Assembly (NCBI GenBank): GCA_003278425.1
Contig: QCFE01000003.1
Location: forward strand, 61,377-125,376
Source of the DNA: Prochlorococcus sp. AG-363-B11
GTDB taxonomy: Bacteria > Cyanobacteriota > Cyanobacteriia > PCC-6307 > Cyanobiaceae
Length of the DNA: 64,000 bases
Direction of reading: 5' to 3'
Below the pieces are notes generated by a model that had not been told where the DNA came from, did no database searches, and saw only the letters and a list, made by a program, of their open reading frames with translations. The translations under genes and the position numbers were made by a program. Below are positions 38,336 through 40,542 of the stretch, one piece after another. Position 1 is the first letter of the stretch; every line of letters begins with the position of its first letter.

Positions 38336-38417
38336 GGGTCGGTGCCCGAGTGGTTAATGGGGGCGGACTGTAAATCCGCTGGCTCTGCCTACGTTGGTTC
38401 AAATCCAACCCGGCCCA
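38336..38417 (+). tRNA. tRNA-Tyr (GTA)
   Basis: GGGTCGG...GGACTGTAAATCC...CCGGCCCA; acceptor pairs, long variable arm, anticodon GTA. Confidence 0.95.
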
Positions 38418-38427
38418 CCTTCCACAA

Positions 38428-38499
<72 letters not shown>

Positions 38500-38639
38500 C
38501 TGTCCTCAACCTCTTCCAAGAGAAAGCCTCTCAGGCACCAGAGGTTCTAAAAGACAGAAAGTGGACGTCCACTTTTTAGTCCACTTTTGCTCTCCTGATC
38601 ATTCTTGCTTGATGCATCTGACCTGATGCAATTCAAGAC

Positions 38640-38706: not shown

Positions 38707-39468
38707 ATGAAAAACAATTTTCTAGAGAAGCTCTTAACATTTTCATTTCTTCTAGGTTCAGCTCCTGTCCTAGCAGATGAAAAACCAATTATTCAATCAA
38801 ATCTACCAAGTTTTGAACTTGCTGCAAACGCTGCAGAAATCAAAAAGTTGATTAAATGCGAAGCCAAATTAAGAACTCCTCCTGATAGCGATGATGAGGT
38901 CGAATTAATCTTTACTGAATCTTGGGGTGTCCCAAAGTACGCATATAACGACCCTTTAACCAAAATAATTGAAGATGAATATAGTGATGAAGTTGTCAGT
39001 GAGGACTGTCAAGGAGTTAATAAAGAAGAAACAGAAAAATCTCTTTTAGCAATCAAGAGTACTTACGATATCAAGTTTAAAGTTGTAGAAAATAGACCAA
39101 TTATTCAATCATCACTGACAAATTTCGACCGTGCAATAGGAACTTCTGCATTCAGAAAGGGGTTAGAATGCCAACGTAAACTACCAGGTTCTTCTTTAAA
39201 AGATGCTAATCTTGAATTTATACTTAAGGCACATCTTGTATTACGTGGCCAAAAAAATAGTATAAAAATGTCCGAATTTAATGACCCTTTAACTAAATTA
39301 ATTACTGACAATTATAGTGATGATGTTATGGGTAAGGACTGTATAACTTTAGATCCAGATGCATTACAAAGAACTTTGAACCCAATTAGGTATAATTATG
39401 ATATCAGATTTAATATAAAGCCAAAGTCAAAAGAAATAAATTTCTTTCCCTTGGAAGGCATTAAATAG
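38707..39468 (+). CDS. Hypothetical secreted protein with tandem internal duplication
   Basis: 253 aa; signal peptide MKNNFLEKLLTFSFLLGSAPVLADE, then two homologous halves (PIIQSNLPSFELA.../PIIQSSLTNFDRA...; NDPLTKIIEDEYSDEVVSEDC/NDPLTKLITDNYSDDVMGKDC). Confidence 0.7.
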   Translation: MKNNFLEKLLTFSFLLGSAPVLADEKPIIQSNLPSFELAANAAEIKKLIKCEAKLRTPPDSDDEVELIFTESWGVPKYAYNDPLTKIIEDEYSDEVVSEDCQGVNKEETEKSLLAIKSTYDIKFKVVENRPIIQSSLTNFDRAIGTSAFRKGLECQRKLPGSSLKDANLEFILKAHLVLRGQKNSIKMSEFNDPLTKLITDNYSDDVMGKDCITLDPDALQRTLNPIRYNYDIRFNIKPKSKEINFFPLEGIK

Positions 39469-39757: not shown

Positions 39758-40060
39758 ATGCTTTTAAAGACGTTAATTGTATTAGCTCCCATTCTCATTG
39801 CAGCAACATCTACAATCTTTTGGCTATCTTTTTGGGGAGTACTTAATTGGAACGAAGGTGCTCTACCTGGTGTCCCATTTCTAGAAAATTATCAAGACTG
39901 GGAAGATAGTGGAATAGTTCCTGACAACAGGCCAAAGGGAGGGTACCCAGTTTTTACGGTTAGGACTCTGGCTGTAAATGCATTAGGCATTCCAACTGTA
40001 TTCTTTCTAGGAGCAATATTTGCCATGCAATTCATCAGAAGAGGCTTCTTTAATGCATGA
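39758..40060 (+). CDS. PsbF-like (cytochrome b559 beta-like) two-TM protein lacking the heme-ligand His
   Basis: 100 aa; C-terminal [38 protein letters not shown] matches the PsbF pattern [26 protein letters not shown](Q/R)R with H replaced by N (AAT); extra N-terminal TM. Confidence 0.75.
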
Positions 40061-40175
40061 TAAAGAAAATTATCAATCAATAAAAGCAATTGATAATGTC
40101 ATTTTCTTTCTTATATCTATTTCTTCATTTTTGTGGATATCAGTTAACCTAACAGGGTTCTATCTATACAAGTGA
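40053..40175 (+). CDS. 40-aa single-TM peptide overlapping the PsbF-like gene
   Basis: Manual translation [40 protein letters not shown]; 8-nt overlap with the upstream ORF (ATGCATGA). Not in the ORF list. Confidence 0.45.
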
Positions 40176-40353: not shown

Positions 40354-40542
40354 ATGGAAGTATCAAGTTCCAACCCTGCACCATTCATTTTAATAGGAAT
40401 GACCCTAATGTTCCTATTTGGCTAAGTGGCTTATGGAATGTACAATTCATTTGGCCCAGGTGCTAATGGTTTAAAGGATTCAATTAATGAGCATGCACGT
40501 ATGCATGACTTATGGATTGCTCATACTCATGGAGGTAAATAA
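40354..40542 (+). pseudogene. PsbN-like small membrane protein with one in-frame TAA
   Basis: Frame reads MEVSSSNPAPFILIGMTLMFLFG*VAYGMYNSFGPGANGLKDSINEHARMHDLWIAHTHGGK*; the second part resembles PsbN (GFG.YTAFGP....L.DP..(D/E)H). TAA at 40423-40425. Confidence 0.5.

Follow-up and report, generated by a model that had tools for sequence, protein, structure and literature searches.

A PsbY-PsbF Fusion Without the Heme-Ligand Histidine as a Likely Alternative Photosystem II Subunit in Prochlorococcus

Introduction

The assembly of photosystem II (PSII) is nucleated by cytochrome b559 (PMC12661325) and needs both PsbE and PsbF (PMC9214863; PMC4709441). In PSII structures, cytochrome b559 is adjoined by PsbY (PMC4823308), which is required, in Arabidopsis, for the high-potential form of the cytochrome (PMC9214863). 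The T. elongatus PsbE mutants H23A and H23M have only apo-b559, yet they show wild-type levels of active PSII (PMC9214863). As for Synechocystis, its b559 ligand mutants mostly fail, and photoautotrophic growth is lost when the beta-subunit His22 is substituted (by residues among L, M, E, Q, Y, K, R, C; PMC4709441). Among solved structures, chain F of 7ymi and 7ymm, deposited as “Photosystem II protein Y”, is a 99-aa single chain made of a His-bearing PsbF followed by PsbY. These two entries presumably represent the PSII of Acaryochloris, and the existence of such a natural chain implies that PsbF and PsbY helices can form one polypeptide.

Here, we report on a gene of Prochlorococcus sp. AG-363-B11 in which helices of these two types are joined in the opposite order, and in which the residue matching the heme-ligating His of PsbF is Asn. 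All positions below refer to the window, i.e., the whole stretch of 64,000 nucleotides that was analysed. The fusion gene and its surroundings were compared with other Prochlorococcus and marine Synechococcus genomes. The protein family itself is already catalogued by NCBIfam, as “cytochrome b559 subunit beta, long form” (NF002717 / NF002720). We found no prior description of a His-less PsbF or of a PsbF-PsbY fusion in Prochlorococcus in the open-access papers searched. Though the family is catalogued, both the natural and fixed loss of a b559 ligand and the substitution of a single chain for two PSII subunits are apparently undescribed.

Results and Discussion

Identity and Parts of the Fusion Gene

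The fusion gene (39758..40060, forward strand) encodes 100 amino acids and was identified from its translation, its match to NF002717, the invariant Asn in the family alignment and its dN/dS. The first-pass annotation had described its C-terminal end as nearly a PsbF transmembrane helix, a resemblance that proved to be far beyond chance: the protein scores 63.5 bits against the NCBIfam model TIGR01333 (cyt_b559_beta; cut-off 61.15), 37.1 bits against the Pfam model Cytochrom_B559 (PF00283; cut-off 30) and 171.4 bits against NF002717 (E 3.7e-51; cut-off 153; residues 1-100 on profile positions 1-97), while PsbF chains of the PDB match it with E-values down to 7e-12. Fusion members from high-light (HL) strains score slightly under the TIGR01333 cut-off. 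The PsbF-type helix corresponds to residues 62-95 (39941..40042, forward strand) and differs from PsbF by W to T, H to N, A to G and A to F/L on one face. Within it, codon 74 (39977-39979, forward strand) is indeed AAT, so that Asn74 stands at the column of the heme-ligand His, as had been read from the sequence at the outset.

The N-terminal part consists of a PsbY-type transmembrane helix (approximately residues 1-31; 39758..39850, forward strand) and of a linker (approximately residues 32-61; 39851..39940, forward strand) that is variable in length across the family but in which N44, W48, E49 and D50 are conserved in the alignment. The AF2 model of the fusion is of low confidence: only helices 2-25 and 68-99 are credible and the linker is unstructured. 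The gene lies outside psbEFLJ, as had been noted from the start. That operon, psbE-psbF-psbL-psbJ with its own His-bearing psbF (L131), was located on another contig of the genome (G000:C2), in answer to the question of whether a canonical copy existed, and a normal psbY (L199) is present as well. Sigma-70 promoters near the fusion ORF do not exceed the number expected by chance.

Conservation of the Ligand Loss

Homologs were aligned with PsbF, as the first-pass annotation had suggested, and they form a conserved family. Across all loci fetched, Asn occupies the ligand column in 28/28 distinct peptide variants from many genera; at the DNA level, 102 distinct sequences encode this PsbF helix. 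None of these 102 sequences has His at this column, whereas the canonical PsbF copies caught by the same motif have it in every case; homologs retaining His, which would have pointed to a local mutation, are thus missing from this set. A sequencing error at the Asn codon is ruled out by the same 102 sequences. The Trp to Thr change is found in all variants but one, and the FTVR motif keeps its Arg. The changed positions (W to T, H to N, A to G, A to F/L) cluster on the helix within an arc of 60 degrees (p 0.012, in comparison with four random transmembrane positions), and the remainder of the PsbF helix is almost frozen. When computed over six members of equal length (the window gene and five relatives), dN/dS of the window gene against its relatives is about 0.05, and about 0.02 when the PsbF part is taken by itself.

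The fusion occurs in 9/14 genomes of the window's genus (its own genome counted, several of the others being incomplete) and in most Prochlorococcus genera examined. Within the marine Synechococcus genus g57, it is found in seven genomes among those listed and is absent from most of those sampled. No phage homolog was recovered from 50,697 phage records or from IMG/VR.

Probable Origin of the N-Terminal Half in PsbY

The first-pass annotation had considered the first 60 residues or so as an unrelated segment with its own transmembrane helix; the helix is there, but it is of PsbY type. HL homologs start with MDFRVLLVIAPI and match the Pfam PsbY model weakly (15.7 bits), while the first residues of the window fusion match NF009711 (PsbY) at E 0.0026 and 17.2 bits, below the cut-off of 48; the fusion itself thus remains below the cut-offs of the PsbY families (PF06298 / NF009711). 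A profile built from 24 family members matches 7ymi chain F twice, once on its His-bearing PsbF helix and once, with a weak i-Evalue of 4.4, on the PsbY helix that follows. Standalone relatives of the N-terminal half, 35-44 aa long, exist in four genomes (G014, G024, G032 and G033). The G024 relative (L196) scores above the threshold of the Pfam PsbY model (27.3 against 24), and the relative in G014 (L195) aligns with the N-terminal region of the long-form model. A gene of the pentapeptide-repeat type adjoins the standalone copies in G014, G024 and G032, and the fusion has one of the same type at its side in G025, G088 and G071. As judged from these sequences, the simplest history would be that a psbY paralog acquired a copy of psbF at its 3' end. 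The change from His to Asn probably predates that from Trp to Thr, since the form found in G025 has kept the heme-face Trp and already has Asn.

Loss of psbF and psbY

A search with TIGR01333 revealed a canonical psbF along with the fusion in the genera g1, g62, g76, g17 and g57. In contrast, the fusion is the only PsbF-type match in six complete genomes of the genus g79, which we tentatively take to be the NATL-type low-light (LLI) Prochlorococcus, and in the complete genome G016 (genus g4). Over the whole of g79, it is the sole confident match in 30 of the 41 genomes, the other 11, most of them 50-77% complete, having either no match or one marginal partial match; in g4, the fusion stands alone in two of the three genomes. 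In both g79 and G016, psbE, psbL and psbJ are intact and the operon reads psbE-psbL-psbJ, with psbE and psbL separated by 29 nt in g79 and 34 nt in G016, versus about 160-172 nt holding psbF elsewhere. Genome G286 lacks psbF but also psbE, and was excluded from the psbF losses.

Regarding psbY, no canonical copy was found in the 10 g79 genomes tested (10/10), in G016 or in G095, where NF009711 matches only the N-terminus of the fusion. In the remaining genera tested, a canonical psbY scores above cut-off, except in the incomplete genome G025, in which the fusion alone was matched. The fusion is therefore the sole PsbF and the sole PsbY only in g79, G016 and G095, and not in the window genome. 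Because the assembly of PSII needs PsbE and PsbF, the fusion must act as PsbF, and presumably as PsbY, in the organisms devoid of psbF.

The PsbE proteins of the psbF-less genomes have kept their ligand His but share T27A, I33V and T41S (7/7, versus 0/11 of the psbF-containing genomes read). T27, three residues past the ligand His, is equivalent to T26 of T. elongatus, a residue chosen for mutation in studies of the heme site (PMC4709441). These co-changes likely arose on one branch rather than through repeated events, and the psbF-less genera may be sisters.

Gene Neighbourhood and Companion Proteins

The end of the fusion gene overlaps by 8 nt (ATGCATGA) with gene B (40053..40175, forward strand), which encodes a 40-aa protein with a single transmembrane helix, as supported by the ORF list, synteny and alignment, and which is the conserved 3' partner of the fusion in most lineages of our synteny table. 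Other companions are likewise small membrane proteins: across the family, B has about 32-53 aa, C has 37-53 aa and an HPP motif, and two transmembrane helices each are found in D (about 115-160 aa) and E (about 137-202 aa), while HL strains have in addition a second PsbY-like protein of 61 aa (Y2). Their order shifts between clades, even though linkage is kept in many of them. No Pfam or NCBIfam family matched B, C, D or E, profile searches of the PDB returned no convincing homolog of C, D or E, and the AF2 model of D is of low confidence, with only its helices credible. In the HL genus, D and E accompany the fusion in all 27 genomes that bear it (27/27), whereas D is absent from 15 of the 16 genomes without it (Fisher p 1e-10). 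In the window genome, D and E are located on another contig than the fusion, and the g57 Synechococcus genomes have the fusion without D or E.

Several observations were made in passing on these genes and their surroundings. Each of the two helices of E has an RF.(A)IWVLP motif that recalls the RWLAVH motif of PsbF. Loci of the B to E families include L037, L038, L040-L063, L066-L110 and others. The complete HL genome G397 carries the whole C-D-A-Y2-B-E cassette twice (L144 and L145), about 360 kb apart. In G228 (HL; L202), D, E, B and C are present, whereas Y2 and the fusion are gone, apparently through a deletion of about 500 bp, while only a remnant of E is left of the companion set in G128. 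In the window, tandem genes for tRNA-Tyr and tRNA-Thr (38336-38500, forward strand) lie just 5' of the fusion region, followed by an ORF of 253 aa (38707-39468) that looks secreted, has two similar halves and matches no family. Downstream, a PsbN-like gene of 62 codons (40354-40542, forward strand) has an in-frame TAA at codon 24; the part beyond it matches PF02468 (E 0.004) and NF009650 (E 4e-4), and its relatives L034, L132 and L134 are intact, with a conserved EHARMHELGIAHTH tail.

A Proposed Role in Photosystem II

According to our preferred reading, which we regard as likely, the fusion is an alternative PSII subunit that replaces PsbY and PsbF beside PsbE and that does not form a normal bis-His cytochrome b559, as an isoform in most lineages and constitutively in g79 and G016. 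PsbF runs from stroma to lumen and PsbY is thought to run the opposite way. Owing to these opposite orientations, the helix of the psbY paralog, joined to the PsbF copy through the linker, would yield a membrane hairpin with a stromal linker, whose two helices would occupy, beside PsbE, the sites of PsbY and PsbF; the Acaryochloris chain would have the same pair of helices with a lumenal linker. With Asn in the beta subunit and changed residues on the heme face, the pair formed by PsbE and the fusion would lack the normal bis-His site and would most likely be apo-b559, a weakly bound or His/Asn-ligated heme being less likely. That active PSII forms in the T. elongatus mutants H23A/H23M with apo-b559 indicates that the loss of the b559 heme can be tolerated, while the loss of photoautotrophy in Synechocystis beta-His22 mutants means that compensating changes would be needed for the fusion. 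In lineages that have kept normal psbF and psbY, including the window genome, the fusion would probably be a condition-dependent isoform, for which iron shortage is a plausible condition given the gene neighbourhood. Where psbF and psbY have been lost, as in g79 (the presumed NATL-type LLI genus) and G016, it would have become constitutive, and low light may make the loss of a photoprotective heme affordable while iron is saved. Judging from gene content, PSII apparently works in g79 and G016 without a normal bis-His cytochrome b559 heme site.

Other explanations deserve to be weighed. A decaying or phage-derived psbF duplicate without function, an option raised in the first-pass annotation, might be suspected from the position of the gene outside psbEFLJ and from the in-frame stop of the neighbouring psbN-like gene, but strong purifying selection (the low dN/dS), conservation across the genus, the lack of a homolog in the 50,697 phage records and IMG/VR and the status of the fusion as sole PsbF in g79 make it extremely improbable. 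The same annotation had also proposed a role in PSII, which our results support, although its wording (an assembly placeholder or a dormancy factor) was too modest for a protein that in g79 and G016 has no other PsbF or PsbY beside it in the genome. More serious is the possibility that, where psbF and psbY are kept, the fusion acts in assembly or repair, or in a separate membrane complex with B to E: it is co-inherited with D and E, which have no PSII homologs, and cytochrome b559 is the nucleus of PSII assembly (PMC12661325). Yet it is this very protein, its conserved residues unchanged, that stands in for psbF and psbY in g79 and G016, and g57 Synechococcus has the fusion with neither D nor E, so that we hold this explanation to be doubtful.

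A heme could also persist in the PsbF site, held by the PsbE His together with Asn74 or water, which would give a b559 of altered potential. Asn can in principle ligate heme, and the loss of the cofactor is for this reason only inferred; moreover, both the PsbE His and the FTVR Arg, a partner of the heme propionate, are retained in the fusion and the psbF-less genomes, and the strict conservation of Asn rather than of a hydrophobic residue suggests a specific role. However, the W to T and A to F/L changes at the heme face and the change of PsbE T27 suggest closure of the pocket, and Asn-heme ligation is, to our knowledge, rare, which makes a mixed-ligand heme unlikely, somewhat more so than a role in assembly. 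Finally, iron starvation may induce the fusion, so that PSII would spare its heme iron. In 5/5 genomes of the window's genus, the genes pcb (antenna), C (a 47-aa transmembrane protein), D (two transmembrane helices) and isiB (flavodoxin) follow each other (at 697-3196 of L206, on contig C7 of the window genome, and in the same order in L209, L210, L211 and L216), the D-isiB pair adjoins the fusion divergently in g79 and g4, and isiA-isiB is the classical operon of iron stress (PMC8635728). Against this, scans for a Fur box in the 5' regions of the fusion gene and the pcb-C-D-isiB cluster gave scores within the shuffled range, the fusion lies outside that operon in the window's genus, acclimation to low light fits equally well, and the Synechococcus carriers have neither D nor E; nor was a low-iron niche confirmed for these carriers, two fusion-bearing single cells coming from North Pacific stations at 28-33 N and not from an iron-poor upwelling. 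An iron link is plausible on genomic grounds, while induction by iron starvation as such is a tentative proposal, to which we give less than an even chance.

Coming back to the alternative subunit, we lean slightly towards its strongest form, namely that the NATL-type lineage and a related one have abolished the bis-His site and run a PSII without a functional b559 heme, while their relatives would swap between heme-bearing and heme-less PSII. Prochlorococcus is not known to have a PsbV cytochrome, and its PSII would then be devoid of any heme, at a lower cost in iron, with two of its subunits replaced by one fused chain. The annotation that names this protein a cytochrome subunit would have to be corrected, and a lineage living without the beta-subunit His would be a natural experiment on a question raised in PMC12661325.

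Comparison with Known Systems

With respect to PsbF (PF00283, TIGR01333), the C-terminal helix of the fusion derives from PsbF, whose FTVR motif and 12-residue core it shares, but the axial His is replaced by Asn and, in all variants but one, Trp by Thr, a PsbY-type helix is added and the gene stands outside psbEFLJ. With PsbY (PF06298, NF009711), it shares the N-terminal helix and the start motif, as well as the standalone relatives, whereas it extends into a linker and a PsbF helix and scores under the PsbY cut-offs. The name of the NF002717/NF002720 models gives no hint of the lost ligand, of the PsbY half or of the replacement of psbF and psbY. Chain F of the Acaryochloris PSII (PDB 7ymi/7ymm) likewise unites PsbF and PsbY in one polypeptide, yet in the reverse order, with PsbF first and its His ligand retained. 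Finally, the apo-b559 mutants of T. elongatus (PsbE H23A/H23M) resemble the fusion in having active PSII without a ligated b559 heme, insofar as the heme has indeed been lost from the latter; those mutants are artificial and concern the alpha subunit, whereas the fusion is natural, affects the beta subunit and is fixed in a lineage.
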